A stretch of 64,000 nucleotides of DNA, from NCBI RefSeq assembly GCF_016411865.1, contig NZ_JAEKJA010000001.1, positions 558,001 through 622,000 of the forward strand. Reading direction: 5' to 3'. A model generated the notes under the pieces. The model worked only from the letters and a program-made list of their open reading frames with translations, searched no databases and had not been told where the DNA came from. The DNA is from Acuticoccus mangrovi (lineage in GTDB: Bacteria > Pseudomonadota > Alphaproteobacteria > Rhizobiales > Amorphaceae). This document shows positions 4,349 to 27,127 of the stretch, one piece after another. A program made the position numbers and the translations under genes. Position 1 is the stretch's first letter; the number at the start of each line of letters is the position of its first letter.

Positions 4349-4376
4349 TCCGGCCAAGAATGAGAAGAGGACCGGG

Positions 4377-9164: not shown

Positions 9165-9308
9165 GACTCTCCTCGTCTCGTTGTCAGGGCATAACGCCGA
9201 GGCGAGGTCCGCGGTTGAAGTATGGCCAAAATCAAATGTTGCCGACATGACAGTGGCCGCGCGCCTCCATAGATCCTTCCCCGAAATCGTTGGATGGAGG
9301 GGACGACC

Positions 9309-9824: not shown

Positions 9825-9865
9825 GGCGGTCGCGTCGGCTCGCGAAGCGCACCTGGGAGAACCGC

Positions 9866-10543: not shown

Positions 10544-10547
10544 CCGC

Positions 10548-11918: not shown

Positions 11919-11963
11919 AGTGCGTTCGGAAAGAGTGGAGCCGGTTTTCCGCTCGGAACGCGC
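11915..11963. repeat. RIME-like interspersed palindromic repeat
   Basis: The stretch from CTAGAG through GCGTTCGGAAA, GAGTGGAGCCGG, TTTTCCG and GAACGC forms nested inverted arms: GCGTTC (11922-11927) with GAACGC (11956-11961) and CGGAAA (11927-11932) with TTTCCG (11946-11951). The order GTTCGGAAA-GTGG-CCGGTTTTCCG is the signature of short intergenic palindromes that are dispersed in rhizobial genomes. It begins at the histidine kinase stop. Confidence 0.6.
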
Positions 11964-12016
11964 GCAGAAGGGGACGCTGGAGCCGCTTCGGCGTGCGCGG
12001 GTTCATCGAGCCGGCT

Positions 12017-12439
12017 CTAGCCGCGCAGCTCCAGATTGTTGCCCTCGCTGTCCTTCAGATAGACCGACGTCGCCTCGCCGGTCGCGCCGTAGCGCACGCC
12101 GACGTCGCCCACCGGGACGCCGTGGGCCTTCAGATGGGCGATCACCCTATCGGCATCGAAGTCGGCGAGACGCAGGCAGAGGTGATCCATGTTGTGGCCC
12201 TCCGCGCCGGGGGCGGCACCACCCTTCCTGCCGAGCACGCCGTCCACCGCCACGAGGTCGATCAGCGCGTCGCCGGCCCGCAGGTGCATCATGCCGAGAT
12301 CGTCGCGCCGTCGCGCGAGCGGCAGGCCCAGGATCCCCGTGTAGAAGGCGAGGGCCCGGTCCATGTCGAGAACGCGCAGCACCACGTGGTCGATGCCCGC
12401 GACGCCGAGGCCCTTGTCGGTCGCTGCCGTCGTCATCAT
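12017..12439 (-). CDS. VOC family (glyoxalase/dioxygenase fold) protein
   Basis: Vicinal oxygen chelate domain protein, 140 aa. The opening IDHVVLRVLDMDRALAFYTG is the typical first beta-alpha unit with its metal-ligand histidine, and the end SVYLKDSEGNNLELRG holds the metal-ligand glutamate. HNMDHLCLRLADFDADRV supplies the second-half histidine. It is close in pattern to the small virulence-type/glyoxalase I-like proteins. GGGAGGAC precedes the tandem ATGs at 12439. No neighbour fixes its substrate. Confidence 0.88.
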   Translation of the reverse strand: MMTTAATDKGLGVAGIDHVVLRVLDMDRALAFYTGILGLPLARRRDDLGMMHLRAGDALIDLVAVDGVLGRKGGAAPGAEGHNMDHLCLRLADFDADRVIAHLKAHGVPVGDVGVRYGATGEATSVYLKDSEGNNLELRG

Positions 12440-13347: not shown

Positions 13348-14514
13348 TCAGGCGGCGCGCCGCTCGGCGGCGGGCGCCGGTGCCGCGGCCGGCGCGCCGT
13401 GCGCCACGCGCTGCTCGTGTGCATGCCGCACCAGCGCGGCGAAGCGGTAGATGCCGTGCACGAACTTCGAGTAGGGCAGGCTGACGAAGAGGGCGAACAC
13501 CACGCCGAGATGGAGCGCGAGGGTGATGCCCATGAGGGGCGTCGCGCGCAGGACGAGGAGGAGGAGCCCCGTCGCGCTCGTCGCCACCAGCATGATGATG
13601 AAGGCGGTGCCCATGTCGCGCGCGCTGCCGTCGGCGTTGGCGGAGGTGATGGCGGGATCGCGCTCGCGGCGCGTGGCGAGGAGGCCGAGCGGGCCGACGA
13701 TGAGGCCGATGCCGCCGAGAACACCGAGGATCACCACCGGGTGCCAATAAGGGTAGGGGGCCTCGACCCCGGCATAGTGGTAGAGCGTGCCCGCCCCCGT
13801 CGCCGCGAAGCAGAGCAGGAAGCCGTAGAAGGTGAAGTGATGGTAGAGGCGGCGCCGGTCGCTCGGCCGCTCGCTCTCGTGCATGCAGCCCATGCCGCCG
13901 CCGTCGAGATAGCGCAGCGTCGCCGCGTCGTGCATCGCCCGGGCGACGGAGATCGCCGACAGCCCCTCGATGGGCCCGGCGGCGCGCCAGAAGGTGACGA
14001 GGCTCATCACGCTCGCGACGATCGCATAGAGGAAGGCGGCGCCGAAGAGGCCCACCATGCCGTAGTGGGGCATGATCTTGTAGAAGGCGCCTTCGCCGAC
14101 GTGCACGCCGAACAGCACCTGCGGGTCCTTCCACGCCATGAAGCCGCCGATGAAGAGGGCGACGAAGAGCGCGGCCCCCACCGTCAGCCAGACGCCGTTG
14201 CGGGCGAACACGGGGGCGAGGGCGCGCGGCCAGGCGTAGCGGGCGTAGCTTTCCTCGCGCAGCTCGGCCATCGCCACCGGCACGTTGATGGCGATCTCGT
14301 GCGGCGGCGCGTACTGGCAGTCGTAGAAGCAGGCGCCGCAGTTGTGGCAGAGGTTGGAGAGATAATCGAGCTCGCCCGGGGTGAAGACGCGGCGCAGCTC
14401 CATCGCCGGAAACACCGCGCACAGCCCCTCGCAATAGCGACAGGCGTTGCAGAAATTCATCTGCCGGTCGACCTCGGCGAGGTTGGGCGAGGCGAAGGCG
14501 TCAGTTGCGGACAT
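13348..14514 (-). CDS. tcuB: Tricarballylate utilization protein B (Fe-S/heme electron transfer partner)
   Basis: Membrane electron-transfer protein that reoxidises the flavin of TcuA and passes electrons to the quinone pool (family knowledge from Salmonella TcuB). The 388-residue protein starts with two cysteine clusters, NFCNACRYCEGLCAVFP and NLCHNCGACFYDCQY, fitting iron-sulfur centres. It continues with five to six membrane segments after residue 100. Its start overlaps the end of tcuA by 14 bp, so the two are translationally coupled. The Ala/Pro-rich C-terminal tail is not conserved. Confidence 0.92.
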   Translation of the reverse strand: MSATDAFASPNLAEVDRQMNFCNACRYCEGLCAVFPAMELRRVFTPGELDYLSNLCHNCGACFYDCQYAPPHEIAINVPVAMAELREESYARYAWPRALAPVFARNGVWLTVGAALFVALFIGGFMAWKDPQVLFGVHVGEGAFYKIMPHYGMVGLFGAAFLYAIVASVMSLVTFWRAAGPIEGLSAISVARAMHDAATLRYLDGGGMGCMHESERPSDRRRLYHHFTFYGFLLCFAATGAGTLYHYAGVEAPYPYWHPVVILGVLGGIGLIVGPLGLLATRRERDPAITSANADGSARDMGTAFIIMLVATSATGLLLLVLRATPLMGITLALHLGVVFALFVSLPYSKFVHGIYRFAALVRHAHEQRVAHGAPAAAPAPAAERRAA

Positions 14515-15913
14515 AGGTCGAGACTCCCTGGCCTGCGATGCGGCCGAACACCGAGCCGATGGTCATGCCGATGCCCGCGAGGTAGCCCTCGCCGAGGATG
14601 TTGCCGGCCATGATCTCGCCGGCGGCGAACATGTTGGGTGAGACGGCACCGTCGGCGAAGAGCATGTGCCCTTCGCGGTCGACGCGGATGCCGAGGTAGG
14701 TGAAGGTGATGCCCGGCCGGAGCGAGTAGGCGTAGAAGGGCGGGGTGTCGATCGGGCGCGCCCAGTGGGTCTTGGGCGGCGTCAGCCCTTCGGTGTGGCA
14801 GTCGTCGTGCACGGTGTGGTCGAAGTGGGAGCCGCGGCAGGCCGCGTTGAAGGTGGCGACGGTCTCGGCGACCTTCGTCGGATCGATGCCGATCTTCTGG
14901 CACAGCTCTTCGAGCGTGTCGGCCCGCTCCGGCGGGTAGACGGAGGGCATGAAGAGGTTGATCGACTTGGAATCGATCAGCACGTGCCCGACCTGGTCCG
15001 GCTGTGCCGCGACGAGGCGCCCCCAGATGGCGTAGCGCTTCGGCCAGAAGTCTTCGCCCTCGTCATAGAAGCGCTCGCCCTCGGCGTTGAGGACGATGCC
15101 GAAGGGCACGCAGTCGAGGCGGGTCACGATGCCGCCGTCGAACTTCGGCGCACGGCCGTCGATGGCGACGCAGTGGCACTGCTGCGGGTCGCCGATCTGG
15201 TCGAAGCCCTTGTCGATGAGGAGGCGCAGCACCGAGCCGGTGTTGTAGGGGGTGCCGCGGACGAGGAAGTTCTTGGCGGGCGGCCCCCAGGCGTCGGCGA
15301 GCCAGTCGAGATCCGCCTCGAAGCCGCCGGACGCCGCGACGAAGCCGCGCGCCTCCACCCGGTGCGTGCCGTCGCCGTCACGGATGGTGGCGCCGGTGAA
15401 GAAGCCGTCCTCCACGTCGATGTCGATGAGCTCGGTGTCGTAGCGGATGTCGATGCCGAGATCCTCGGCGGTGCGGTAGAGGGCGTTCAGCATCGAGCGC
15501 CCGCCGCCGAGGAAGAAGGCGTTGGTGCGCCCGAGCGACAAGGTGCCGCCGAGGGAGGGCTGGAAGCGCACGCCCTGGGCCCACAGGAAGTCCCACAGTT
15601 CCTTGGAGCGCTCCAGGGTGAGGGTGGCGAGCTCCTCGTTGGTGTTGCCCTTGGTGACGCGCTGCAGGTCGTCCCAGAACTCCTCGAAAGGATAGGGGCC
15701 GGTGAGGATGCCGTTCCCCTCGTCGTGGGCGACGCGCATGTTGCGGGTGTGGCGCGTGTTGCCGCCACGCCAGGCTTTCGGCGCCTTTTCCACCACGAGG
15801 ACGCTGGCGCCGTTGCGGGCGGCGGTGATCGCGGCACACATCGCCGCGTTGCCGCCACCGGCGACCAGAACATCCACTTTAAGGGCCCCGGGCGGGGCAG
15901 TCGGGCGTTTCAT
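14501..15913 (-). CDS. tcuA: FAD-dependent tricarballylate dehydrogenase
   Basis: Oxidises tricarballylate to cis-aconitate using FAD (role of TcuA). The protein of about 470 aa has the N-terminal dinucleotide-binding motif DVLVAGGGNAAMCAAITAAR, the flavoprotein segment VASGGFEADLDWL, and the C-terminal ATG-like closing motif FAAGEIMAGNILGEGYLAG typical of fumarate-reductase-like flavoproteins. I favour ATG 15913 over ATG 15943, because the latter begins only 10 bp from a TGTATACA operator and has no ribosome site; neither site is strong. The gene precedes tcuB in one unit. Confidence 0.92.
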   Translation of the reverse strand: MKRPTAPPGALKVDVLVAGGGNAAMCAAITAARNGASVLVVEKAPKAWRGGNTRHTRNMRVAHDEGNGILTGPYPFEEFWDDLQRVTKGNTNEELATLTLERSKELWDFLWAQGVRFQPSLGGTLSLGRTNAFFLGGGRSMLNALYRTAEDLGIDIRYDTELIDIDVEDGFFTGATIRDGDGTHRVEARGFVAASGGFEADLDWLADAWGPPAKNFLVRGTPYNTGSVLRLLIDKGFDQIGDPQQCHCVAIDGRAPKFDGGIVTRLDCVPFGIVLNAEGERFYDEGEDFWPKRYAIWGRLVAAQPDQVGHVLIDSKSINLFMPSVYPPERADTLEELCQKIGIDPTKVAETVATFNAACRGSHFDHTVHDDCHTEGLTPPKTHWARPIDTPPFYAYSLRPGITFTYLGIRVDREGHMLFADGAVSPNMFAAGEIMAGNILGEGYLAGIGMTIGSVFGRIAGQGVSTYVRN

Positions 15914-15953
15914 GTCGGACACGTTCCGATCTTGTCGCTTCATAGGATACGAA

Positions 15954-15961
15954 TGTATACA
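15954..15961. promoter_or_regulatory. TGTATACA operator upstream of tcuAB
   Basis: ATGTATACAT (15953-15962) is a perfect palindrome 40 bp upstream of tcuA. Related octamers occur upstream of the MmgE/PrpD gene (17136), tctBA (20852) and tctC (21918). The pattern suits GntR-type operators. Confidence 0.55.
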
Positions 15962-16006
15962 TCGATGATCGACGCAAGGTCGAGCCCACTCGACAGCCTT
16001 AAGTCG

Positions 16007-17065
16007 TCAATCTTTGAGAGCGTTGGCGACGCGCTCGGCAAACACCATGGTTGTGGCCGTTCCGCCGAGATCGCGGGTGTGGGCCGCGGGGTCCGCGAGG
16101 GCGGCGTCGACGGCGCCTTCGATGGCTCCCGCCGCGTCCACCAGCGCGCTCGTGGCGTGCCGTTCTCCGAGCCAACGCAGAAGGAGGGCGGCCGATAGGA
16201 TCAGCGCCGCGGGGTTGGCGATGCCCTCTCCCGCGATGTCGGGGGCCGAGCCGTGCACGGCCTGCGCCACGGCGTGGTCGCTGCCGGCGTTGAGGGCGGG
16301 GGCGAGGCCGAGCCCGCCGGCGAGCTCTCCCGCCTCGTCGGAGAGGATGTCGCCGAACATGTTGGTCGTCACCACCACGTCGAAGCGCGCGGCGTCGCGC
16401 ACGAGGTGGGCGGCCATCGCGTCGACGATGACCTCTTCGAGCCGCACTTCGGGAAATTCGCTGGCGACGGCCCGGACCGCCTCGAGGAACAGCCCGTCGG
16501 ACCGCTTTAGGACGTTCGCCTTGTGGACGGCGGTGACGAGGCCGCGCCGCCGTGCCGCCGCGCGGAACGCCTCGCGGGCGATTCGCGTCGACGCCTCCCG
16601 GGTGATCTTGCGCACGGCGAGCGCGACGTCCTCGGTGGCGAGGAATTCGGCCGAGCCGTCGAACATGTTGCGGTCGGCGTAGAAGCCCTCAGTGTTCTCG
16701 CGGTACATCACGAGATCGATCTCGGCCCGGCGCCGGGCGGCCGGAAGGCGGGCGACGGCGGGGCGGATGTTGGCGAAGAGGTCGAGGCTCTTGCGCACGA
16801 TCGCGGATGGGTTCGGCTGACCCGCCGGGTAGGCGTAGGTGTCGACGGGCGCGAGAATCACCCCGTCCGCCGCCTTGATCGCCGCGGCGGTCTCGGCGGG
16901 GAAGGTGGAGCCGGTGGCGGCGAGCGCGGCGACGCCGACCGGGTGCTCGCTCAGCCGGAGGCCGAGGCCGAAGCGACGCTCCGCCGCAGCGACGACGTGC
17001 AGCGTAGCCGCGGTGATCTCCGGTCCGATGCCATCGCCAGAAAGCACCGCAAGACTGAGATCCAT
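16007..17065 (-). CDS. Isocitrate/isopropylmalate dehydrogenase family protein
   Basis: NAD(P)-dependent beta-decarboxylating dehydrogenase, 352 aa. Family motifs are clear: LSGDGIGPEI at the start, YRENTEGFYADRN near residue 125, TAVHKANVLKRSDG with the catalytic lysine, and DVVVTTNMFGDILSDEAG with metal-binding aspartates. The ENTEG form is shared with tartrate and homoisocitrate dehydrogenases, so a hydroxy-di- or tricarboxylate substrate is likely. GGAGGAG precedes ATG 17065. It diverges from the MmgE/PrpD gene and reads toward tcuAB, suggesting a role in the same carboxylate pathway. Confidence 0.88.
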   Translation of the reverse strand: MDLSLAVLSGDGIGPEITAATLHVVAAAERRFGLGLRLSEHPVGVAALAATGSTFPAETAAAIKAADGVILAPVDTYAYPAGQPNPSAIVRKSLDLFANIRPAVARLPAARRRAEIDLVMYRENTEGFYADRNMFDGSAEFLATEDVALAVRKITREASTRIAREAFRAAARRRGLVTAVHKANVLKRSDGLFLEAVRAVASEFPEVRLEEVIVDAMAAHLVRDAARFDVVVTTNMFGDILSDEAGELAGGLGLAPALNAGSDHAVAQAVHGSAPDIAGEGIANPAALILSAALLLRWLGERHATSALVDAAGAIEGAVDAALADPAAHTRDLGGTATTMVFAERVANALKD

Positions 17066-17106
17066 CGTCCGACTCCTCCGAAATATCGCCCTTTCACGTT
17101 GTCCGA

Positions 17107-17143
17107 TTGACCGACCAACGTGTTCTGAGTTCAATTGCATACA
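17107..17143 (+). promoter_or_regulatory. Promoter with TGCATACA operator, upstream of the second MmgE/PrpD gene
   Basis: TTGACC (17107-17112), a 17-bp spacer and TTCAAT (17130-17135) form a good sigma-70-like promoter. TGCATACA (17136-17143) follows directly at the expected start of transcription, matching the TGTATACA sites elsewhere in this module. Confidence 0.55.
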
Positions 17144-17224
17144 GAGAAGGCGCCCACAAGCCGATCCCGACCGACGGTGTCGCGATCGCCGCGCCATCGG
17201 CCCAGAATCCATGAGGAAACACCC

Positions 17225-18592
17225 ATGCTTCTCACCCAGATGTCCGAGTACGTCGCCAACGAGCGAACGCATGCGCTGTCCGACAAGACGATGCATCATG
17301 CCAAGCGTGCGGTGATCGACTGGTTCGCCGCGATGTATCCGGGCTCGATCCAGAACCCGACGCCGATGCTGCGGCGGGCGTTGAAGGACGAGCTCGGTCG
17401 CGGCCGCGCCGTGGTGTTCCCCGACGGCGAGATGGCGACGCCGCGCACCGCCGCCTTCATCAACGGGACGGCGTCGCACACCGCCGAGTTCGACGACATC
17501 CATCGCGATTCGGCCGTCCATCCCGGCTGTGCCACGGTGGCGGCGGCGCTGGTCTCCGCCCAGCACGCCGGCGTCGACGGCGACACCTTCCTGCGCGGCG
17601 TGATCGCGGGCTACGAGGTGTCGACCCGCATCGGTCTCGCCATGGGCCGCGAGCACTACGCGCTGTGGCACGCGACGGCGACCATCTCCACCTTCGGTGC
17701 CGCCGCCGCCTCCGCCCTCATCCTGGGTCTAACGGCGGAGCAGACGGCGCACGCCATCGCCACCTCCGCGACCATGGCGGCGGGGCTGCAGCAGGCGTTC
17801 CGCTCCGACGCGATGAGCAAGCCCATCCACGCTGGCCACGCGGCCGAAGCCGGCATCACCAGCGCCCTCGTCGCCCGCGAGGGGGTGACGGGCGCGCTCG
17901 ACGTGCTCGACGGCCCCGTCGGCATGGGCGTCGCGATGAGCGGCAACGCGCACTGGGAGAAGGCCACCGCGGGGCTCGGCAGCGACTACATCATCGAGCG
18001 GATGACGTTCAAGAATCACGGCTGCTGCGGCCACACCTTCGCCGCCATCGACGGGGTGATGGTGCTGACGGCCAAGCACGGGCTGACCGCCGACAAGATC
18101 AAGAGCATCCACGTCGGCGGCTATAAGCCGACCTTCGACATCTGCAATCGGCCGGACCCGCAGACGCCCGTCGACCGCCGCTTCAGCGTCCAATACGTGG
18201 TGGCACACGGCGTCGTCTATGGCGGGGCGCGCCTCGCCGCCTTCACCCCGGAGCGGATGGCCGACCCGGTGCTGCGCTCGCTCGCCTCGCGGGTGACGGT
18301 GTCGCTCGATCCGGAGCTCGACGCCTTGTTCCCCGCCCAGCGCGCCGCCCGCGTCACCGTCGAGACGGTCGATGGGGAGACGTTCGAGTATCTCCAGCCG
18401 ACGCGCAAGGGTGACCCGGACATGCCGCTCACCGACGAGGAGCTGTCGGAGAAGTATCGCGAGCTCGCCGGCTCGGTGCTCGGCGAGGAGCCGGCCGAGG
18501 TGCTGCTCGCCGCCCTCTGGGGGCTCGAGAAGCGCAAGAACATGGACCTGCCCGCCGCGGTGCGGGGCGAGGAGCGCCGCATCAGCGCCTGA
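17225..18592 (+). CDS. MmgE/PrpD family protein (second copy; candidate cis-aconitate decarboxylase)
   Basis: MmgE/PrpD family protein, 455 aa. Conserved positions of the family are visible: EFDDIHRDSAVHPG near residue 85, ALWHATATISTFGAAAASAL near 143, SKPIHAGHAAEAG with a lysine near 200, and TFKNHGCCGHTFAAIDG with a lysine and histidines near 265. These correspond to the active-site histidines and lysines described for cis-aconitate decarboxylase, but the same residues also occur in dehydratases and epimerases of the family. GAGGAA precedes ATG 17225. The setting with tcuAB makes cis-aconitate a plausible substrate (inference). Confidence 0.88.
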   Translation: MLLTQMSEYVANERTHALSDKTMHHAKRAVIDWFAAMYPGSIQNPTPMLRRALKDELGRGRAVVFPDGEMATPRTAAFINGTASHTAEFDDIHRDSAVHPGCATVAAALVSAQHAGVDGDTFLRGVIAGYEVSTRIGLAMGREHYALWHATATISTFGAAAASALILGLTAEQTAHAIATSATMAAGLQQAFRSDAMSKPIHAGHAAEAGITSALVAREGVTGALDVLDGPVGMGVAMSGNAHWEKATAGLGSDYIIERMTFKNHGCCGHTFAAIDGVMVLTAKHGLTADKIKSIHVGGYKPTFDICNRPDPQTPVDRRFSVQYVVAHGVVYGGARLAAFTPERMADPVLRSLASRVTVSLDPELDALFPAQRAARVTVETVDGETFEYLQPTRKGDPDMPLTDEELSEKYRELAGSVLGEEPAEVLLAALWGLEKRKNMDLPAAVRGEERRISA

Positions 18593-18612
18593 GGCGGCCG
18601 CCGTCAAAAGAG

Positions 18613-18646
18613 AAGGCCCGGCGTGCGTGGCACGCCGGGCCTTTTT
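18613..18646. terminator. Bidirectional intrinsic terminator between convergent genes
   Basis: AAGGCCCGGCGTGC (18613-18626) pairs perfectly with 18630-18643 across a 3-nt loop, followed by TTTTT on the plus strand; an A-rich stretch before it (18606-18609) serves the minus strand. It separates the MmgE/PrpD gene from tctA. Confidence 0.9.
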
Positions 18647-18666
18647 CGTGCGCGGGAGGTGCGCTC

Positions 18667-20172
18667 TCAGGCGGAGGCGCGCGCCGCTTTTCGCTTGTCG
18701 AAGAAGCCGCGGATCACGGGGAAGAGCAGCACCAGAACCGTCAGAGTCGCGATGATCAGCGAGATCGGGCGGGTGATGAAGACCGACCAGTCGTTCTGCG
18801 AGATCAGGATGGCGAGGCGCATGTTCTCCTCCGCCATCGGCCCCAGGATGAGGCCGAGCACGGCCGGGGCGAGGGGGAAGTCGAGCCGCTCCATGGCGTA
18901 GCCGAGCATGCCGAAGGCCAGCATCATGTAGAGGTCGAACATCGAGTTGTTGATCGAGTAGACGCCGACCGCCGTCAGCGCCGTGATGAGCGGCACCAGG
19001 AGCACGCGCGGCAGGCGCAGCACGTGGGCGAACACGCGCGTCCCGATCATTCCGCCGATGAAGATCAGGAGAAGCGAGGTCAGGAACATCTGGATCATGA
19101 AGCCGTAGACGACGTCCGGATGGTCGCGGAAGAGGCCGGGCCCCGGGCGCAGCCCGTGGATGAGGAGGCCGCCGAGGATCACCGCGGCGACCGAGCTTCC
19201 CGGAACGCCGAGGGTCAGCGCCGGCACCATCGCTGCCGAGTTGTCGGCGTTGTTGCCGCACTCGCCGGCGGCGACGCCCTCGGGCGAGCCCTCGCCGAAC
19301 TCTTCCGGCGTGCGGGAGGCGCGCTTCGCCTCGTTGTAGCTGAGGAAGGCGGCGATGTTGCCGCCCGCGCCCGGCAGGAGGCCGACGAGGACGCCGATGA
19401 AGGACGAGCGCGCCCACGTCTTCCACAAGAGTCGCCAGTCGTCGAACATGCCGTGCTCGCTCTTCACCCGCAGCTTGGCGCGGCTGATGCCGGTCTTGAC
19501 CGCTTCCTCGGCCATCGCGATCGCCGGCGGCACGGCATAGAGGCCGGTGAGGAGGACGACGATGTGGAAGCCGTCATAGAGCCCGGTCATGCCGAAGGTG
19601 AAGCGTTCGACGCCCGAGATCGTGTCGATGCCGACCGTGCCGACGAGGAGGCCGATACAGGCCGACAGGATGCCCTTGATGGGGTTCTTGCCGACGAACA
19701 CGGCGATGGCGGAGAGGCCGAACACGCCGACCCAGAAATATTCCGCCGGACCGAACGCCAGCGTGACCCTTGCGAGCGGCGGGGCGAGGGTGATGAGCAC
19801 GATGGCGCTCACCATGCCGCCGATGGCCGAGGAGACCACGGCGATCTGGAGCGCCCGTCCGGCCTGCCCCTTCTGGGCCATCGGATAGCCGTCGAAGGTG
19901 GTGACGATGGAGGCGGGGGTACCTGGAATGCGCAGCAGGACCGCCGGGATGGCGCCGCCGTACATGGCGCCGTTGTAGATGCCGGCCATCATGCCGAGAC
20001 CCACCATGGGGTCGAGGCCGAAGGTGAGGGGGATGAGCACGGCGATGCCCATGGTGGCCGACAGGCCGGGCAGCGCGCCGATGGCGATCCCGAGTGCCGT
20101 GCCGCCGACCATCGCGAGGAGGTTCATCGGCGAGAAGACGTACGGCAGGGCGTGAAGCAGTTGGTCGATCAC
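18667..20172 (-). CDS. tctA: Tripartite tricarboxylate transporter, large permease TctA
   Basis: Large membrane subunit of a tripartite tricarboxylate (TTT) transporter, 501 aa, with about eleven hydrophobic segments. The TctA signatures are present: GTALGIAIGALPGLSATMGI near residue 27, GMMAGIYNGAMYGGAIPAVL near 60 and GLLPGAGGNIAAFLSY near 270, plus the GVPGSSVAAVILGG segment. The start is GTG 20172 with GGAG upstream, 39 bp after the tctB stop. With TctB and the TctC protein it imports tricarboxylates such as tricarballylate or citrate, driven by the ion gradient. Confidence 0.95.
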   Translation of the reverse strand: MIDQLLHALPYVFSPMNLLAMVGGTALGIAIGALPGLSATMGIAVLIPLTFGLDPMVGLGMMAGIYNGAMYGGAIPAVLLRIPGTPASIVTTFDGYPMAQKGQAGRALQIAVVSSAIGGMVSAIVLITLAPPLARVTLAFGPAEYFWVGVFGLSAIAVFVGKNPIKGILSACIGLLVGTVGIDTISGVERFTFGMTGLYDGFHIVVLLTGLYAVPPAIAMAEEAVKTGISRAKLRVKSEHGMFDDWRLLWKTWARSSFIGVLVGLLPGAGGNIAAFLSYNEAKRASRTPEEFGEGSPEGVAAGECGNNADNSAAMVPALTLGVPGSSVAAVILGGLLIHGLRPGPGLFRDHPDVVYGFMIQMFLTSLLLIFIGGMIGTRVFAHVLRLPRVLLVPLITALTAVGVYSINNSMFDLYMMLAFGMLGYAMERLDFPLAPAVLGLILGPMAEENMRLAILISQNDWSVFITRPISLIIATLTVLVLLFPVIRGFFDKRKAARASA

Positions 20173-20211
20173 GACAGTCTCCGTGAGGAGCGGCCCGAGG
20201 GGCCGTCCCCG

Positions 20212-20667
20212 TCAGTAGATGAGGCCCTGCGGAAGCGGCCGATCGAAGATGAGGATGAAGATCACGTAGACGAGCGCGAGGAAGGCGATCGTCGTCAGCC
20301 CCAGCGTGCGGTAGTCGCGGAAGCCGAGGGCGAGCGACAGGAGCACGATCACGAGCAGCGTTGCGGTGAAGTAGCCGAGCTGGGAGATGGTGAAGAGGTA
20401 GAGCAGCATCGCCGCGACGGTGATCACGAAGTTCAGCGGATTGCGGAAGAAGGGCTGATGCAGCTTCGGATCGTCGGCGGCCTGCGGCGTGCGGCCGGCG
20501 ATGGAGACGGTGCGCAGGAACATCATCACCGCGCCGATCGCCATCACCGCGGTGATCATGCGCGGGAAGATCATCGACTTGAAGGGGAGGGTGCCGGCGT
20601 AGAGGAACACGCCCGCGGCCACCGCGAATAGAATGACGGCGGCGATCCTGTCCTTGCCGTAGGTCAT
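20212..20667 (-). CDS. tctB: Tripartite tricarboxylate transporter, small permease TctB
   Basis: Small membrane subunit of the TTT transporter, 151 aa, with four hydrophobic segments near residues 8-25, 35-52, 78-115 and 122-140; this topology and position next to tctA identify it, as the family has little sequence conservation. It pairs with TctA in the inner membrane. The ribosome site GTGAGG lies inside a hairpin arm (20673-20691), so translation of tctB, and by coupling tctA, may be limited. Confidence 0.9.
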   Translation of the reverse strand: MTYGKDRIAAVILFAVAAGVFLYAGTLPFKSMIFPRMITAVMAIGAVMMFLRTVSIAGRTPQAADDPKLHQPFFRNPLNFVITVAAMLLYLFTISQLGYFTATLLVIVLLSLALGFRDYRTLGLTTIAFLALVYVIFILIFDRPLPQGLIY

Positions 20668-20672
20668 CGGAT

Positions 20673-20691
20673 GGCCTCACGATGTGAGGCC
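20673..20691 (-). promoter_or_regulatory. Hairpin enclosing the tctB ribosome binding site
   Basis: GGCCTCAC pairs with GTGAGGCC (8 bp) around a 3-nt loop. On the transcribed strand the 3-prime arm GTGAGGCC contains the likely ribosome site seven bases before the tctB ATG. Confidence 0.5.
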
Positions 20692-20851
20692 GCGGCGACC
20701 GGATAGGCCTTGGCCGGGCTTGCCGGAAAGCAACTGTTGCGGCGCGGTGCCGCCATCGTCTGCGTCACGAGCGTTCGTCCTCCCTGTGAAAGCGCCGCAC
20801 GTGCCGATCTTATCGTCGGCTCCAAGCCGTGCAGGCCTCGGACACTAGCTA

Positions 20852-20859
20852 TGTATACT
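20852..20859. promoter_or_regulatory. TGTATACT operator upstream of tctBA
   Basis: ATGTATAC (20851-20858) matches the core of the 15954 site. On the minus strand it lies between a TTGTAG box and a TAGTGT box spaced by 17 bp, a plausible tctBA promoter about 170 bp upstream of tctB. Confidence 0.45.
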
Positions 20860-20890
20860 CTAGTCTACAAGGGGATCAGTCGCGGCATCC

Positions 20891-21802
20891 TCATGTGGAG
20901 GATCGCGACAATATCTCGAGGATGATCTCGGCCACGCGGTCGGCCGCTTCATACATCACCCAGTGGCCGGCCTCGGCGATGACGTACTGCTCGGCCTCCG
21001 GATGCACGCCCTTGAGGAGGGCCTCGCGCTCGGCATGCTGCGGGGCGACCACGTCGAGATCACCGTAGATCGCGGTCACCGGGGCGCTCACCTTGGGCAG
21101 CGTGGAGATGAGGGCCTCGGTGCGCGAGACCGGACGGCTCGGGGTGCGGGCGCGCGGCACGTTGAGGGTCTGCATCTTGACGGCGAGCGCGTCGATGTTC
21201 GCCGGATCGGCGAGCATCATCGCCGCGAGATTGGCCCGGTGGACCTCGGCGAGCTCGTCGGCGCTGGTGACGTCGCGCACGCGGCGCAGCGGCGGGCGCT
21301 CCATCACCGGCAACCCCCACCCCGGTGCGCCGAGCAGGAAGAGGCGCTCGCAGCGCTCGCCGAGGGCGGCGGCGAGGTAGGTCGAGATCACGCCGCCGAA
21401 GGAGAAGCCGGCGACCGCGACGGGCGCGTCGGTGCCGGTGATGATGTCGACGCCGGCCTTGACGGGGGCCGCGACGGCCGCGGCCGCCTCGCCGCCGCGC
21501 GTCGGGGTGCCGTCGGGAAGGGCGGCGGATTCGCCGAAGCCCGGGAGATCGGCGACGAGCAGCCTCCGGTGCCGCGCGAGCGTTGGAATCGGCAGGATCC
21601 AATGCAGCCACGAGCCGTGCCCGCCATGGAGGAGCACGAGGGGCGGCCCGTCGCCGAACACGCGCCAGACCATGCTCCCGTCGCCGCACGGGGTCTCCAC
21701 CCGCTCCGATGCCGCCTCGACCACGGCGAGAACTTCGCTCGGATCGTGCGAGTCCCGCTGCTTCAGGATGGTTTCGGCGACGCTCAGCGGGTCAGTCAGC
21801 AT
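20891..21802 (-). CDS. Alpha/beta hydrolase
   Basis: Alpha/beta hydrolase fold protein, 303 aa. The oxyanion segment PLVLLHGGHGSWLHW is near residue 52, the nucleophile elbow GFSFGG (Ser) near residue 125, an acid in the YGDLDVVAPQ strand, and the catalytic histidine in IAEAGHWVMYE near residue 285. GAGGA lies 8 bases upstream of ATG 21802; the frame extends to 21853 without a better site. It stands between tctC (divergent) and tctBA (same strand, 223 bp further). It may hydrolyse an ester precursor or a CoA ester in the pathway; the substrate is unknown. Confidence 0.87.
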   Translation of the reverse strand: MLTDPLSVAETILKQRDSHDPSEVLAVVEAASERVETPCGDGSMVWRVFGDGPPLVLLHGGHGSWLHWILPIPTLARHRRLLVADLPGFGESAALPDGTPTRGGEAAAAVAAPVKAGVDIITGTDAPVAVAGFSFGGVISTYLAAALGERCERLFLLGAPGWGLPVMERPPLRRVRDVTSADELAEVHRANLAAMMLADPANIDALAVKMQTLNVPRARTPSRPVSRTEALISTLPKVSAPVTAIYGDLDVVAPQHAEREALLKGVHPEAEQYVIAEAGHWVMYEAADRVAEIILEILSRSST

Positions 21803-21917
21803 CAAGGGGTCCTCGTGGTGGTGTGCGGCGGTCCGCGGGTCGTGAACGTACACCCGGTCCGGCTAGCGCGTCGGAGGGTGCAACGGAAGCTATGAGCCGA
21901 CAATAGCGGCGCGCGAA

Positions 21918-21925
21918 TGTATGCT
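21918..21925. promoter_or_regulatory. TGTATGCT operator in the hydrolase-tctC divergent region
   Basis: AATGTATGCT shares seven of eight core positions with the site upstream of tcuA (preceded by the same GAA). It lies 136 bp upstream of tctC and 116 bp upstream of the hydrolase start. Confidence 0.4.
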
Positions 21926-22053
21926 GTTGTATTTGAGAGCGCCTCAAGGCTACTCTCCCGCCAAGCGGTCGCGAGGCCGTTGGCCAGATGGCCGGCCTGA
22001 CGGCCGGCGCAAAGACGCGACACCACAACCGCGCTCATAGGGAGAGAGGCTCA

Positions 22054-23025
22054 ATGAGATTCAAGTTCAAGACATCCGTCGCCGTCCTCGCGGCGTCCTT
22101 CGCTCTCGCGGCGGGCCCGGCGCTCGCCGAGTATCCGGAACGGGGCATCACGATGATCGTCGGCTACTCCGCCGGCGGCGGGACCGACGTGATGGCGCGC
22201 ACCCTCGCGCCGTTCCTGGAGAAATATCTCGGCGGCAACGTCTCGGTGACGGTGGAGAACAAGCCCGGCGCCGGCGGCGAGCTGGGCTTCACCGCGATCG
22301 CCGAAGCCAAGCCCGACGGCTACACCATCGGGATGCTCAACATCCCGTCCTTCATCAACCCGATGATCCAGCGCGATCCCGACTACGACATCGACAGCTT
22401 CGCCCCCATCGGCAACATCGTGTCGGATGCGACGTCGCTCGTGGTGCGTACCGATTCGGAGTTCGAGACGCTCGAAGACTTCATCACCTACATCAAGGAG
22501 CATCCGGGCGCGGTGCCGGTCGGCAACTCCTCGCTCGGCGGCGCGACGCACACGAGCTTCCTGCGCTTCCTGAACCCCAATGATCTCGAAGTGACGCACG
22601 TGCCCTTCCCGGGCGCCGCGCCGAGCCGCACGGCGCTGCTCGGCGGCCACGTCGCCGCGAGCGTGATGGGCATCGGCGAGGCGGCGCCGCTCGCCGCCGA
22701 AGGGCAGCTGCGCATCCTCGCCACCATGCGCAAGGATCGCTGGTCCGAGGCGCCGGACGTGCCGACCTTCACCGAGCTCGGCTATCCGATCGTCGCCGGT
22801 TCCGACCGCGGCCTCGCCGCCCCGGCCGGCATCCCGGACGAGGCGCGCGACAAGCTCGCGGAAGCCGTGGCGAAGATCATGGACGATCCGGAGTTCCAGG
22901 AGGCGGCCCGCAAGCAGTCTCTGCCGCTGAACTATCTCGCCCCCGACGACTACGCCGCGCACATGAACGACACCTACACCCAAATGAAGGCGATCTGGGA
23001 CAAGAACCCCTGGATCGAGCACTGA
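22054..23025 (+). CDS. tctC: Tripartite tricarboxylate transporter substrate-binding protein (TctC/Bug family)
   Basis: Periplasmic solute receptor of the TTT transporter, 323 aa, with a signal peptide of about 26 residues ending PALAEYPE. Bug-family landmarks: GYSAGGGTDVMARTLAPFLE near residue 40, VENKPGAGGELGF near 75, VGNSSLGGATHTSFL near 158 and the AAPAGIPDEARDKLAEAV segment near 265. GGAGAG lies upstream of ATG 22054. It is transcribed away from tctBA, together with the hydratase and CoA-transferase genes downstream, so capture of the acid and its activation are probably co-expressed. Confidence 0.95.
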   Translation: MRFKFKTSVAVLAASFALAAGPALAEYPERGITMIVGYSAGGGTDVMARTLAPFLEKYLGGNVSVTVENKPGAGGELGFTAIAEAKPDGYTIGMLNIPSFINPMIQRDPDYDIDSFAPIGNIVSDATSLVVRTDSEFETLEDFITYIKEHPGAVPVGNSSLGGATHTSFLRFLNPNDLEVTHVPFPGAAPSRTALLGGHVAASVMGIGEAAPLAAEGQLRILATMRKDRWSEAPDVPTFTELGYPIVAGSDRGLAAPAGIPDEARDKLAEAVAKIMDDPEFQEAARKQSLPLNYLAPDDYAAHMNDTYTQMKAIWDKNPWIEH

Positions 23026-23089
23026 TCGGTGTCTACCCGACCGGCGCGGATCGACCGCGCCGGTCACCCTTGTCCACGCGAGGCCATCC

Positions 23090-23881
23090 ATGAACGACCG
23101 CCCTGACGCCGTGCTCCTCGACATCGCGGAGGGCGTCGCGACCGTGACGCTCAATCGCCCGGAGCGGCGCAACGCCATCGATGACGCCACCCGCCTCACG
23201 CTGATCGACACCTTGGAGCACATCAACGCCGACGAGAGCGTGCGCGCGGTGGTGCTGACCGGAGCGGGCAGCGCCTTTTGCGCCGGCGGCGACATCAAGG
23301 GCATGAAGGAGCGCATGGAGGCGCCCGTCGGCCGCGTCGGCTTCAACGGGTGGAAGCGGCAGAAGTCCACCCACCGCCTCATCATGACGGTTCACACCCT
23401 CGACAAGCCCACTATCGCCGCCGTCAACGGCGCGTCGTCGGGCCTCGGCTCCGATCTCGCCTTCGCCTGCGACTTCGTCATGGTGTCGGAGGCGGCGACC
23501 TTCGCCATGGCCTACCGCAAGCGCGGCCTCATTCCGGACGGGGGCGGCCTCTATTTCCTGCCGCGCCGGGTCGGCCTGCCGCGGGCCAAGGAGCTGATCT
23601 ATTCCGCCCGCACCGTCGGGGCCGACGAGGCGCTGGCGATCGGCCTCGCCGACCGGCGCGCCGACGGGGACGTCGTCACCGCGGCCCGCGCCTGGGCCGG
23701 CGAGCTCGCCGAGGGCTCGATGATTGCCCTCGCGCTCGCCAAATCCATTCTCAACCGCGGGCCGGACCTGCCGGTGGAGCAGGTGCTGGCGCTGAGCTCG
23801 GAGGCGCAGGCGGTGTGCTACGCCACCGACGACCATCGCGACTCGGTGCGCGCCTTCCTCGACAAGAGCGCCCGCCGATGA
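23090..23881 (+). CDS. Enoyl-CoA hydratase/isomerase family protein, second copy
   Basis: Crotonase-fold enzyme, 263 aa. The oxyanion-hole segments AFCAGGDIKGMKE near residue 63 and GASSGLGSDLAFACDFVM near 118 are intact, and IPDGGGLYFLPRRVG is the second-half motif. The usual hydratase glutamate of the first position is replaced in the SSGLGSDLAF region by a form seen in isomerase-like members, so hydration is not certain. It is 64 bp after tctC and overlaps the CoA-transferase by four bases (ATGA). It is clearly a different sequence from the copy at 5498. Confidence 0.9.
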   Translation: MNDRPDAVLLDIAEGVATVTLNRPERRNAIDDATRLTLIDTLEHINADESVRAVVLTGAGSAFCAGGDIKGMKERMEAPVGRVGFNGWKRQKSTHRLIMTVHTLDKPTIAAVNGASSGLGSDLAFACDFVMVSEAATFAMAYRKRGLIPDGGGLYFLPRRVGLPRAKELIYSARTVGADEALAIGLADRRADGDVVTAARAWAGELAEGSMIALALAKSILNRGPDLPVEQVLALSSEAQAVCYATDDHRDSVRAFLDKSARR

Positions 23882-25065
23882 CCGCCTCGCCCGCCTTCGA
23901 GGGGCTGACGGTGGTCGAGCTCGCCCAGGGCGTCGCCGCTCCCTATTGCGGCATGATGCTCGCCCAGAACGGCGCCGACGTGATCAAGATCGAGCCCATC
24001 GGCTACGGCGACTGGAGCCGCGGCCTCGGCCGGCGCGAGGGTGATTTTTCCGCCGAATCGATCGTTCTCAACCGCGGCAAGCGCAGCCTGGCGCTCAACC
24101 TCAAGTCCGAGGAGGGCCAGCGCGCCGCGCTCGCTATCCTGGAGCGGGCCGACGTCGTCATCGAGAATTATAGGCCGGGTGTCACCACGCGGCTCGGCCT
24201 CGACTACGAGAGGGTGAAGGCGGTCAATCCGAGCGTCGTCTATGCCACCGTGACGGGCTTCGGCGAGAGCGGGCCGAACCGCGATCTCCCCGCCACCGAC
24301 ACGGTGATGCAGGGCTATACCGGCTTCATGTCGATCAACCGCGACGCGGCCGGCGTGCCGCGGCGGCTCAACATGCTCGCGATCGACGTGTCGACCGGCC
24401 TCTATCTGGCGCAAGCCGTCGCCACCGCCCTCTACCGTCGCGCGGTGAAGGGGGAGGGGGTGCACATCCGTACCAGCCTCCTCGAGTGCGCGATGGCCTT
24501 CCAGGAGTCGCGTATCGTCGCCGAGGTGTTCGACGGCGCGGCGGTGAAGCCGGTGGGCGCGCCCGTCGGCACCTTCCGCACCGCCGACGGTTATCTGAGC
24601 CTCAACGCACGCCGCGACAACCACTTCCGCGCCCTCACCGACATGCTCGGCCATCCCGAATGGCGGGAGGACGCGCGCTTTGCCTCCGAGCAGCAGCGCA
24701 TCGTCAACGCGGCGGCGCTCAACGCGTTGGTCAAGCCCTTCATCGCCGCCGAGCCCACCCGTTATTGGCAGGAGAAGCTCGCCGACGCCGACATTCTCCA
24801 CGCCAAGGTGCATGACTATCGCGAGCTGATGGAGGACCCGCAGGTCTGCCACATGGAGGCGATCGGCTGGGCGGAGATTCCGGGGATCGGCAAGCTGCCG
24901 GCGACGCGGCTGCCGGGTCTGCCGCGACCCTCGGAGCGGGCCGCGGCGGCCGCGACGCCGCCGCGCGTCGGCGAGGGAGGGCGCGCCGCTCTCGCCGATC
25001 TCGGCTTCACCCCCGAGAGGGTTGCAGCGCTCGAAGCGTGCGGCGCGGTCCGCTTCTGCGACTGA
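23878..25065 (+). CDS. CaiB/BaiF family (class III) CoA-transferase, second copy
   Basis: Class III CoA-transferase, 395 aa, expected to convert the imported acid or its product into a CoA thioester. The start FEGLTVVELAQGVAAPYCGM and NGADVIKIEPIGYGDWSR are canonical. The catalytic aspartate is expected in the MLAIDVSTGLYLAQ segment near residue 170. ATG 23878 overlaps the hydratase stop. Gene order tctC-hydratase-CoA-transferase ties it to tricarboxylate uptake; family members include succinyl-CoA dependent itaconate, mesaconate and citramalate transferases. Confidence 0.9.
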   Translation: MTASPAFEGLTVVELAQGVAAPYCGMMLAQNGADVIKIEPIGYGDWSRGLGRREGDFSAESIVLNRGKRSLALNLKSEEGQRAALAILERADVVIENYRPGVTTRLGLDYERVKAVNPSVVYATVTGFGESGPNRDLPATDTVMQGYTGFMSINRDAAGVPRRLNMLAIDVSTGLYLAQAVATALYRRAVKGEGVHIRTSLLECAMAFQESRIVAEVFDGAAVKPVGAPVGTFRTADGYLSLNARRDNHFRALTDMLGHPEWREDARFASEQQRIVNAAALNALVKPFIAAEPTRYWQEKLADADILHAKVHDYRELMEDPQVCHMEAIGWAEIPGIGKLPATRLPGLPRPSERAAAAATPPRVGEGGRAALADLGFTPERVAALEACGAVRFCD

Positions 25066-25076
25066 GCGGGATGTCG

Positions 25077-26042
25077 TCAGCTCTTCGTCGGCGTCGGCGG
25101 GCTGTGGCCCGGATCCTCGATCGGGGCGACCGGCGGCCGCCGGCGCAGCCGCAGGATCGCCACCGTGGAGCCGAAGATGATGAGCGAGCCGAGGAAGGTC
25201 CACACGTCCGGCAGCTCGGCGAACAGCAGGAAGCCGATGAACGCCGCGGCGGGAACGCGGACGAAGTCGATGGGCGTCACCACCGTCATGTCGCCGTGCT
25301 TGACGGCGAGGGAGGACATCAGCTGGCCCGCCGAGCCGGTGATCGCGATGGCGATGAGCCAGCCGAGCTGGATGAGGGTGGGCGTCTGCCAGGTGAGATA
25401 GGCCGGCAGCGCCAGCACGATGGTGCCGGTGAGGGCGAAATAGAGCAGGATGCGCTGCACCGGCTCGGTGGTGGTGAGGCGCTTGATGCAGACGAGGGCG
25501 AGGCTGGAGGAGGCCGCCGCCAGCACCGCGATGATCATCCCCGGGTGGATGCCGGATTGCGGCTGGGCGATGACGAGGACGCCGCCGAAGCCGGAGAAGG
25601 TGGCGATGCCGCCGATCCAGCCCACCACCTCGCCGAAGGCGAGGTAGGAGGTGAGCATCGACCACAGCGGCCGCGTGAAGGAGAGGGCGGTCGCGTCGGC
25701 GAGCGGCAGCACGGTGACGGCGTAGAAGCTGCCGGCCATCATGCCGAGGCCGAACACGGCGCGCATCAGATGGCCGAGGGGGCGGCGCGTCGCGAGCGCC
25801 CGCAGGCCGCCGCGCCAGATCAGCATCGGCCCGACCATCAGGCTGATCATCAGAACGCGCAGGAAGAGGATGACCGCGATGGGCAGCTCCTGGCCGAGGT
25901 GTTTGACCACCGCGGCCTGCAAGGTGAGCACGATGGCGCTCGCGAACATCCACAGCGCGCCCACCACGTTGGGGCCGAGCCGTTCGGCAAGGCCGCCTGT
26001 CGACGTCGCGGTCGCGCCCGCCGATTGGGGAATGGCAACCAA
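25077..26042 (-). CDS. EamA/DMT family membrane transporter
   Basis: Inner-membrane permease of the drug/metabolite transporter superfamily with two EamA repeats, about 321 aa and ten hydrophobic segments. Landmarks: NVVGALWMFASAIVLTLQA at the first helix, LADATALSFTRPLWSML near residue 95 and VTPIDFVRVPAAAFIGFLLF in the second half. I prefer the TTG at 26042 with GGGAG six bases upstream; the longer GTG start at 26111 would lie beyond the TTGTCCGGACAA palindrome that probably belongs to the promoter. Substrate unknown; it may export or import a metabolite of the neighbouring acid pathways. Confidence 0.85.
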   Translation of the reverse strand: MVAIPQSAGATATSTGGLAERLGPNVVGALWMFASAIVLTLQAAVVKHLGQELPIAVILFLRVLMISLMVGPMLIWRGGLRALATRRPLGHLMRAVFGLGMMAGSFYAVTVLPLADATALSFTRPLWSMLTSYLAFGEVVGWIGGIATFSGFGGVLVIAQPQSGIHPGMIIAVLAAASSSLALVCIKRLTTTEPVQRILLYFALTGTIVLALPAYLTWQTPTLIQLGWLIAIAITGSAGQLMSSLAVKHGDMTVVTPIDFVRVPAAAFIGFLLFAELPDVWTFLGSLIIFGSTVAILRLRRRPPVAPIEDPGHSPPTPTKS

Positions 26043-26125: not shown

Positions 26126-27127
26126 ATGGGCCTTGCCGCAATGACCCTTTCGCCTCCCCTCGATCTCGGCGCGCCAGAGCGCTCGCTGGACGTCCCGACG
26201 CTGGTCGTCGCCCCCCTCGTCGACGCCGCCTACGCCTACGTGGAGCGCGGCTGTCGGGCGATCGACCATCGTAGCGGACGCGACGGCCTCGCCGCGCTCG
26301 ACGCGGCGACGCGCGCCGAGGTGGAAGCGGTGATCACCAGCGGCATCGTCGGCTTTTCCGCCGCCGACATGGACCTTTTTCCACGGCTGAAGGTCGTCGC
26401 CTCGTTCAGCGTCGGTCACGAGAATATCGACCTCGAAGCGGCGGCGGAGCGGGGGATCCCCGTCACCAACGCCCCCGCGACCAACGGCGAGACGGTGGCC
26501 GACCACACAATCATGCTGATGCTGGCGGCGGCGCGGGCGCTGCCGGAAATGGACGCCGCGGTGCGCGCCGGGCGCTGGATGGACGCGCGCAAGCGCTACC
26601 GCCCCACCTTGTCCGGCGCCAACGTGGGGATTGCCGGGCTGGGGGCGATCGGCGGGGCGATCGCCTCGCGCGCCGCGGCCTTCGGCACGACGATCCGCTA
26701 CACCGGGCGGACCGCGCGAGCCGAATCGCCCTACGACTTCGTGCCGGACCTCCTCTCCCTCGCCGAGGTGAGCGACTTTCTTGTCATGGCCGTGCCGGGG
26801 GGACCGGCGACGCGCCACATGGTGAGCGCCGCCGTGCTCGACGCGCTGGGGCCGTCGGGCGTCCTCGTCAATATCGGGCGCGGATCGGTGGTGGACAGCG
26901 CGGCGCTGGCCGTCGCCCTCGGCGAAGGCCGGATCGCCGCTGCCGGCCTCGACGTGGTCGATGGCGAGCCCGAGGTCCCCGACGTGCTTCTCGGCGCGCC
27001 CAACCTCGTCATGACGCCGCACATGGCGGGACGCTCGCCGATGGGGCTGCGGCTCCAGTGCGAGCGCGCCCTCGGCAGCATCGCCGCGGCGACGGAGGGG
27101 ACGCCGCTCACCTACCGCGTCGGCTGA
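26126..27127 (+). CDS. D-2-hydroxyacid dehydrogenase family protein
   Basis: NAD(P)-dependent 2-hydroxyacid dehydrogenase, about 333 aa. The nucleotide-binding motif GIAGLGAIGGAIASR is near residue 172; the catalytic triad of the family is visible as the arginine in NIGRGSVVD, the glutamate in DGEPEVPD and the histidine in TPHMAG. It resembles glyoxylate/hydroxypyruvate reductases. Both ATG 26126 and ATG 26141 are possible and neither has a strong ribosome site. The GntR gene follows after 80 bp on the same strand, so the two may form one unit. Confidence 0.88.
   Translation: MGLAAMTLSPPLDLGAPERSLDVPTLVVAPLVDAAYAYVERGCRAIDHRSGRDGLAALDAATRAEVEAVITSGIVGFSAADMDLFPRLKVVASFSVGHENIDLEAAAERGIPVTNAPATNGETVADHTIMLMLAAARALPEMDAAVRAGRWMDARKRYRPTLSGANVGIAGLGAIGGAIASRAAAFGTTIRYTGRTARAESPYDFVPDLLSLAEVSDFLVMAVPGGPATRHMVSAAVLDALGPSGVLVNIGRGSVVDSAALAVALGEGRIAAAGLDVVDGEPEVPDVLLGAPNLVMTPHMAGRSPMGLRLQCERALGSIAAATEGTPLTYRVG

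Follow-up and report, generated by a model that had tools for sequence, protein, structure and literature searches.

The 64,000-nucleotide stretch of the Acuticoccus mangrovi genome analysed here (contig NZ_JAEKJA010000001.1, positions 558,001 to 622,000; hereafter the window, in whose numbering coordinates are given) harbors a gene cluster at 13348–25065, which an earlier note, made from the sequence alone, had read as a module leading from tricarballylate to itaconate. Every gene named there was found in place as an intact open frame matching its proposed family. The minus strand carries TcuB (13348–14514), the 4Fe-4S membrane electron-transfer partner of TcuA, TcuA itself (14501–15943), a member of the flavin adenine dinucleotide (FAD)-dependent tricarballylate dehydrogenase family, and an isocitrate/isopropylmalate dehydrogenase-like enzyme (IDH-like, 16007–17065; PF00180, Iso_dh, 307.6 bits). 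On the plus strand follows a MmgE/PrpD protein (17225–18592) with both the N and the C domain of the Pfam MmgE_PrpD family, whose active site is predicted to be of the isomerase type from a residue survey, a tree and an AlphaFold model. All three subunits of a tripartite tricarboxylate transporter (TTT) are present, i.e., the large membrane subunit TctA (18667–20172, minus strand; PF01970), the small membrane subunit TctB (20212–20667, minus; PF07331) and the periplasmic binding protein TctC (22054–23025, plus; PF03401), with an alpha/beta hydrolase gene (20891–21802, minus; PF00561) between the latter two. The cluster closes on the plus strand with a crotonase (ECH, 23090–23881; PF00378, ECH_1), whose alignments suggest a PaaG-like, isomerase-like active site, and a class III (CaiB/BaiF) coenzyme A (CoA)-transferase (CaiB, 23878–25065), in which the CoA_transf_3 domain (PF02515) spans residues 8–366, the full length, at 326 bits. 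The likely starts of IDH-like (17065) and TctC (22054) were picked by eye from the frames. Strand and spacing suggest about five transcription units (IDH-like-TcuA-TcuB, minus; MmgE, plus; TctB-TctA, minus; hydrolase, minus; TctC-ECH-CaiB, plus). A terminator-like 14-pair stem with a T-rich tail (18613–18643, minus) lies between the convergent MmgE and TctA genes, a weak signal given that the region holds three such sites against a shuffle mean of 3.5.

A nearly identical set occurs in relatives. In a genome of the same genus (G200), the genes from TcuB to a class II aldolase keep their order and strands at 63–90% protein identity. The run there reads TcuB-TcuA-ACD-ACAD-IDH-like-MmgE-TctA-TctB-TctC-TctC-ECH-CaiB, followed by an EamA transporter, a D-2-hydroxyacid dehydrogenase, a GntR and a LysR regulator and the aldolase; it differs from the window by an ADP-forming-type CoA ligase (ACD), an acyl-CoA dehydrogenase (ACAD) and a second TctC, and no counterpart of the alpha/beta hydrolase was detected in it. 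In Aurantimonas coralicida, a block of IDH-like, MmgE, TctAB, hydrolase, TctC, ECH and CaiB is conserved at 56–89% identity (56% for the hydrolase), ACD and ACAD adjoin this block, and the same contig carries TcuAB 12–13 kb upstream of MmgE, close to a gene resembling 3-hydroxy-3-methylglutaryl-CoA (HMG-CoA) lyase. Identities to G200 and Aurantimonas, respectively, amount to 74 and 66% for TcuB, 83 and 76% for TcuA, 76 and 72% for IDH-like, 64 and 62% for TctB, 81 and 83% for CaiB (63% in the SAR116-type locus L024) and 90% in both for the aldolase; TctA is 89% identical in Aurantimonas, and the hydrolase shares 37% identity with one adjoining a related MmgE on a Cupriavidus necator plasmid. 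Within a family sample of ten genomes, our own included, five encode TcuA (E up to 1e-80), whereas only our own genome and G200 encode the CaiB orthologue (E up to 1e-100).

Because the near-same set recurs in G200 and Aurantimonas, the genes form a real module in this lineage and no chance gathering, and the earlier grouping of TcuAB, IDH-like, MmgE, TctABC, crotonase and CaiB is borne out. The gene list itself was correct in all named members and incomplete in two respects, as it omitted the hydrolase and the conserved island runs past 25065, at least to the end of the aldolase gene at 29807. The additional members are the EamA transporter (25077–26042, minus; PF00892; 67% identical in G200), the D-2-hydroxyacid dehydrogenase (26141–27127, plus; NCBIfam models of the family, all under cut-off; 66%), a GntR/UTRA regulator (27208–27975, plus; family match; 67%), a LysR regulator (27915–28865, minus; family match; 63%) and the class II aldolase/adducin family protein (29016–29807, plus; PF00596). 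The ACD-ACAD pair, which in G200 sits between TcuA and IDH-like, is missing from the window cluster; together with the extension past 25065, this means that the island is larger than previously described and that the window holds a trimmed copy. Another contig of the same genome (C65) encodes an ACAD and an ACD with 67 and 54% identity to the Aurantimonas proteins, and an HMG-CoA-lyase-like protein 53% identical to that of G200.

Central to the earlier reading is the MmgE/PrpD protein, a member of a numerous and mostly uncharacterised family (PMC12290011). The earlier note took it for a cis-aconitate decarboxylase: TcuAB would form cis-aconitate, MmgE/PrpD would convert it to itaconate, CaiB would activate the latter, the crotonase would hydrate itaconyl-CoA and a lyase encoded elsewhere would release acetyl-CoA and pyruvate. 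In favor of such a route, cis-aconitate decarboxylase is indeed a MmgE/PrpD protein, the Pseudomonas aeruginosa itaconate cluster contains a CaiB-type transferase, and both TcuA and TcuB pass curated cut-offs. However, the MmgE/PrpD proteins encoded in the itaconate clusters of P. aeruginosa and C. necator were described in 2025 as (S)-(R)-methylsuccinate isomerases, for which a two-base mechanism with His and Tyr was proposed and for which activity on cis-aconitate or itaconate was reported as undetectable (PMC12290011). Their residues His88, Glu91, His102, Tyr148, His152, Lys202 and Lys266 (PMC12290011) correspond at a constant offset of 3 to H85, E88, H99, Y145, H149, K199 and K263 of the window protein.

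These seven residues, along with Cys268, were invariant in 89 of 89 rows of the window clade in two alignment modes (88 distinct rows, from 80 loci, one locus repeating the Phreatobacter genome of L101, G200 and seven plasmid loci). Human ACOD1 instead has Met at Tyr145, Asp at Glu88 and His277 at Cys268, and its Thr97 column reads Ile in the window protein; at the column of its catalytic His103, the window has His99, and His stands in every row compared, including Escherichia coli PrpD. Among these positions, His277 is described as important in human ACOD1, as is Tyr318, a residue not conserved in mammals (PMC7347537). The Tyr318 column holds a Tyr or Phe throughout the clade, which speaks for a decarboxylase; the His277 column, occupied by Cys in the window protein and all 89 clade rows, and the conserved Tyr145 speak against it.

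Tree and fold point in the same direction. In a tree of 46 rows (midpoint root for drawing only; decarboxylases were represented by a single, long-branched sequence), the window clade (23 rows, support 100/99) stands beside a group of 15 rows (95/94) holding four methylsuccinate-isomerase-type proteins, and these 38 rows are split from ACOD1, Bacillus subtilis IRG1, the iminodisuccinate epimerase and five paralogs of our own genome (99/97). The AlphaFold model of the window protein (predicted local distance difference test, pLDDT, 90.6) found its best PDB match by Foldseek in iminodisuccinate epimerase, with a template modelling (TM) score of 0.88–0.90, followed by B. subtilis IRG1 (0.82–0.85) and ACOD1 (0.78–0.82). 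Such a ranking is weak by itself, as all candidates share one fold. For PA0881 of P. aeruginosa, the best structural match was likewise iminodisuccinate epimerase (PMC9875883). Residues, tree and fold together led us to reject the identity as cis-aconitate decarboxylase. A likeness to the B. subtilis 2-methylcitrate dehydratase was also dropped, since the entry concerned (7bra) is the so-called IRG1, whose reaction is given as undetermined (PMC12290011); the 2-methylcitrate dehydratase 5MUX ranked lower (E 4e-21 and worse) with TM scores of 0.77–0.81, about those of ACOD1, and only three of the seven residues are matched in E. coli PrpD.

A similar picture emerged for the crotonase, previously proposed as itaconyl-CoA hydratase. 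The catalytic pair of enoyl-CoA hydratase (Glu144/Glu164 in the rat enzyme) reads Asp and Tyr in the window protein when aligned to hydratase 5z7r, so that a hydratase role was ruled out. The alignment to PaaG, in contrast, is good around the motif GLIPD, and the corresponding stretch is alike in the SAR116, Cupriavidus and Variovorax relatives. Since PaaG has one catalytic glutamate, as in isomerases (PMC4498308), the window protein looks like an isomerase-type crotonase.

The known itaconate set comprises a MaoC-family hydratase and a CoA ester lyase, as annotated in locus L148, which was taken as the PA0878–PA0883 cluster by gene order and not by accession. Neither a MaoC-family itaconyl-CoA hydratase nor a citramalyl-CoA lyase occurs among the window cluster genes, in line with the earlier statement that the lyase is not in the window. 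The suggested genome search recovered best homologs of both, each at 47% identity to the P. aeruginosa protein, on two other contigs (C15 for the hydratase, C16 for the lyase); this lyase and the HMG-CoA-lyase-like protein could serve the last step of an itaconate route. Considering in addition that no TcuA lies within 10 kb of a clade MmgE in the 80 loci surveyed below, the itaconate step is contradicted by the sequence and the route as a whole is very unlikely. The TcuAB arm and the gene grouping of the proposed module are retained, whereas its decarboxylase and hydratase steps are not. As a side observation, one run of genes on contig C15 (locus L158, 13000–31000), at about 7217–12294, encodes the MaoC-family hydratase homolog together with a fumarase-family protein, a MmgE and an acyl-CoA dehydrogenase. 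If this organism uses C5-dicarboxylates, this candidate cluster may account for it better than that of the window.

The assignment of TcuA and TcuB themselves is supported by curated equivalog cut-offs: TcuA passes NF006130 (675.6 bits, cut-off 369) and TIGR02485, and TcuB passes TIGR02484 (435.6 bits, cut-off 246.6). For TcuB, the subfamily model NF011607 scored 420.8 bits, under its cut-off of 524, and no Pfam match was obtained; IDH-like stayed under every NCBIfam cut-off in its table. TcuC was not among the ten Pfam-scanned genes of 13348–25065, a search that did not extend to the rest of the genome. In two genomes of the same genus (loci L128 in G100 and L129 in G183), TcuA homologs of about 60% identity lie near amidohydrolase genes and a PrpF-family gene (by Pfam in L129, by eye in L128), neighborhoods which recall 4-oxalomesaconate-type aromatic-acid pathways; because of this setting, TcuA may not always stand for tricarballylate.

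The presence of IDH-like next to TcuAB offers a second explanation, in which TcuAB would form cis-aconitate, MmgE/PrpD would hydrate it to isocitrate and IDH-like would yield 2-oxoglutarate, leaving ECH and CaiB to serve something else. Consistent with such a bypass, TcuB-TcuA-ACD-ACAD-IDH-like form one strand-run adjoining MmgE in G200, and the window MmgE gives a weak match to the model of a bifunctional 2-methylcitrate dehydratase/aconitate hydratase, at 42.4 bits against a cut-off of 575; two further curated PrpD models were likewise missed, at 36.6 and 30.6 bits against 458 and 950. Genome G100 also holds TcuA-TcuB-IDH-like (the latter 58% identical), and the 18 kb read there contained no match to MmgE. 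This cuts both ways, as it joins IDH-like to TcuAB but shows the trio independent of MmgE. E. coli PrpD, moreover, carries Arg, Asp, Phe, Leu and Glu at the H85, E88, Y145, H149 and C268 columns, so that four of the seven residues, one of them Tyr145, are absent from it, and IDH-like was found within 10 kb in only two of the 80 clade loci. Aconitase and isocitrate dehydrogenase of the tricarboxylic acid cycle could also do the same job. We therefore regard this bypass as unlikely.

How the clade MmgE is embedded elsewhere was surveyed by a contig scan, which gave 263 MmgE relatives, the best 80 of these loci being analysed. A gene was scored as a neighbor when its product matched with 45% identity or more over half the length or more and lay no farther than 10 kb from MmgE; as only 46 of the 80 loci offer 5 kb of flank to either side, the true numbers may be higher. 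ACAD was the most frequent partner (33/80), followed by ACD (7), ECH (6), CaiB (6), the aldolase (4) and IDH-like (2), with TcuA and TcuB in none of the 80. Clustering at 33% identity placed an ACD-type gene in 37 and an ACAD in 31 of 81 sources (the 80 loci and the window stretch). An acyl-CoA dehydrogenase, namely methylsuccinyl-CoA dehydrogenase, is also the reported neighbor of the methylsuccinate isomerase gene (PMC12290011). Similar sets are found on plasmids, e.g., alpha/beta hydrolase, acetate-CoA ligase family protein, TctC-type protein, acyl-CoA dehydrogenase and MmgE in Comamonas endophytica, MmgE, acyl-CoA dehydrogenase, MFS, acyl-CoA dehydrogenase and ligase in Acinetobacter, or TctC-type protein, enoyl-CoA hydratase, ligase and MmgE in Variovorax boronicumulans. 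The lack of TcuA in the 80 loci had suggested that TcuAB are unrelated to the module, a view revised once wider regions than the 10 kb flank had been inspected in G200 and Aurantimonas; TcuA is present somewhere in ten of the 16 genomes searched among the 80 sources.

Several of these loci deserve mention in their own right. Locus L024 (Candidatus Puniceispirillum, SAR116 type) combines the clade MmgE with two CaiB, a crotonase, ACAD and ACD, and also holds a citryl-CoA lyase (passing the NCBIfam cut-off), a UbiD-family protein and a TauE-family exporter; clusters like it occur in L025, L026, L031 and L032. A sulfonate substrate, hinted at by this TauE and by the nearest families of the relatives' ACAD and amidohydrolase, was kept as a lead only, both scores being far under cut-off. 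In L047, L055, L061 and L084, a class II aldolase 55–70% identical to that at 29016–29807 lies 13–30 bases from the clade MmgE. On a Comamonadaceae plasmid (L152, CP099607.1), a methylsuccinate-isomerase-type cluster adjoins an amidohydrolase and an IDH-like 53% identical to that of the window; IDH-like therefore accompanies an isomerase-type MmgE in another lineage, too.

This variability also allows for the possibility that there is no joint pathway at all, and that separate acid-degradation genes for different substrates were gathered by transfer and kept together because such islands move together. The changed place and strand of TcuAB between G200 and Aurantimonas would fit this, as would the lineage-dependent partners of MmgE (e.g., aldolase in 4/80 and IDH-like in 2/80 loci) and the second MmgE, CaiB and crotonase at 1762–6298 of the window. 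This second set consists of a MmgE/PrpD (1762–3120) with Asp at the isomerase Tyr column, a class III CoA-transferase (4377–5501), a crotonase (5498–6298) with, by eye, Glu at both hydratase columns, and, in between, a LacI-type gene likewise recognized by eye; the 5.46 Mb genome holds 14 MmgE/PrpD matches altogether. Against a mere gathering, MmgE, ECH and CaiB orthologues occur together in six of the 80 loci (one Aurantimonas, five of SAR116 type), and G200 and the window agree in gene order. Hence, we consider the absence of a joint pathway rather unlikely.

The reading we prefer, by a narrow balance of the evidence, is that the window holds a conserved island, in trimmed form, for the catabolism of branched di- and tricarboxylic acids, in which a tricarballylate arm is combined with a methylsuccinate-like isomerase/CoA arm. 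Gene content, synteny, residues and tree position were observed, and from these we infer every reaction and every substrate. In this scheme, the tripartite transporter would import the acid. In the first arm, cis-aconitate would be formed by TcuA and TcuB through oxidation of tricarballylate or of a closely similar compound, and IDH-like probably catalyses the oxidative decarboxylation of a 2-hydroxy acid further downstream. In the second, MmgE/PrpD could work as a two-base (His99/Tyr145) isomerase and not as a decarboxylase; by analogy to methylsuccinate isomerase, it would act on a free 2-substituted succinate and invert its stereocentre. CaiB would then make the CoA ester, and the crotonase could shift the double bond, or otherwise rearrange the ester, after an acyl-CoA dehydrogenase step. 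The genes for this dehydrogenase (ACAD) and for a CoA ligase (ACD) lie inside the sister cluster of G200 but not in that of the window, where homologs are found on contig C65 of the same genome.

Several points weigh against this preferred reading. Tricarballylate has no stereocentre, so that no single substrate explains both arms, and ACAD and ACD are missing from the window cluster. The window MmgE shares only 33% identity with the P. aeruginosa isomerase and falls into a separate clade, which speaks against orthology to PA0881-type proteins; CaiB is likewise 33% identical to the P. aeruginosa CoA-transferase, and the relatives' ACAD share 30–34% identity with its methylsuccinyl-CoA dehydrogenase. 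Long branches leave the placement of ACOD1, IRG1 and the epimerase in the tree uncertain, and the Foldseek E-values are nearly tied between the epimerase (1.9e-26) and mouse IRG1 (2.1e-26), only the TM scores being different. At the ACOD1 Tyr318 column, the window has Tyr324 and the 89 clade rows have 65 Tyr and 24 Phe, unlike the Thr found in all four methylsuccinate-isomerase-type rows. Parts of the diagnostic pattern are also widespread: among six paralogs of our own genome, Tyr145 is kept in five, Cys268 in six and Glu88 in one, and among eleven more distant relatives of the same order, Tyr145 and Cys268 are kept in all and Glu88 in ten. The pattern therefore parts the clade from ACOD1 and PrpD without singling out methylsuccinate.

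A more specific version, which we put forward tentatively as somewhat short of probable, is that the window clade constitutes an undescribed isomerase family for a chiral 2-substituted succinate other than methylsuccinate, opening a CoA-dependent pathway which is joined here to a tricarballylate-oxidising arm. Such a pathway could comprise the isomerase, a CoA ligase or class III transferase, an acyl-CoA dehydrogenase, a PaaG-like crotonase and an HMG-CoA-lyase-like lyase, and would run parallel to the itaconate/methylsuccinate pathway while being built from different proteins. In the titles and abstract starts searched, neither a tricarballylate/itaconate pathway nor a combination of MmgE, TctC, CaiB and TTT was found, though most subscription journals lie outside that coverage and the combination is thus not shown to be unpublished. 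A MmgE/PrpD protein is readily assumed to be a dehydratase or to make itaconate, and the residue test used here parts a recurring clade from ACOD1 and PrpD; its coherent gene set is found in Alpha- and Betaproteobacteria and in one gammaproteobacterial plasmid copy. The presumed marker of tricarballylate use, TcuAB, is found in differing acid-degradation neighborhoods.

Compared to known systems, the island shares the TcuA and TcuB families with the tricarballylate operon tcuABC of Salmonella (PMC10468695), but has TctABC and IDH-like alongside them. Iminodisuccinate epimerase (2HP0/2HP3) is the nearest solved structure to the window MmgE by sequence and by Foldseek and keeps both catalytic bases, whereas it carries Asp in place of Glu88 and is only 25–26% identical in the fold alignment. 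ACOD1/IRG1 have the MmgE/PrpD fold and the H85, H99, H149, K199 and K263 columns in common with the window protein, which differs by Cys for His277, Ile for Thr97 and Tyr145/Glu88 for Met/Asp. A further system close to the island is the itaconate/methylsuccinate cluster ich-mcd-mmgE-ict-ccl of P. aeruginosa and C. necator (PMC12290011; PMC9875883), with which the window shares the seven MmgE residues and a class III CoA-transferase, and its relatives an acyl-CoA dehydrogenase and a CoA lyase in the neighborhood. Apart from the distant MmgE, however, a crotonase here replaces the MaoC-family hydratase, the relatives have an ADP-forming-type CoA ligase, an HMG-CoA-lyase-like protein replaces the CoA ester lyase in two of them, and the window side adds TcuAB, IDH-like and TctAB.

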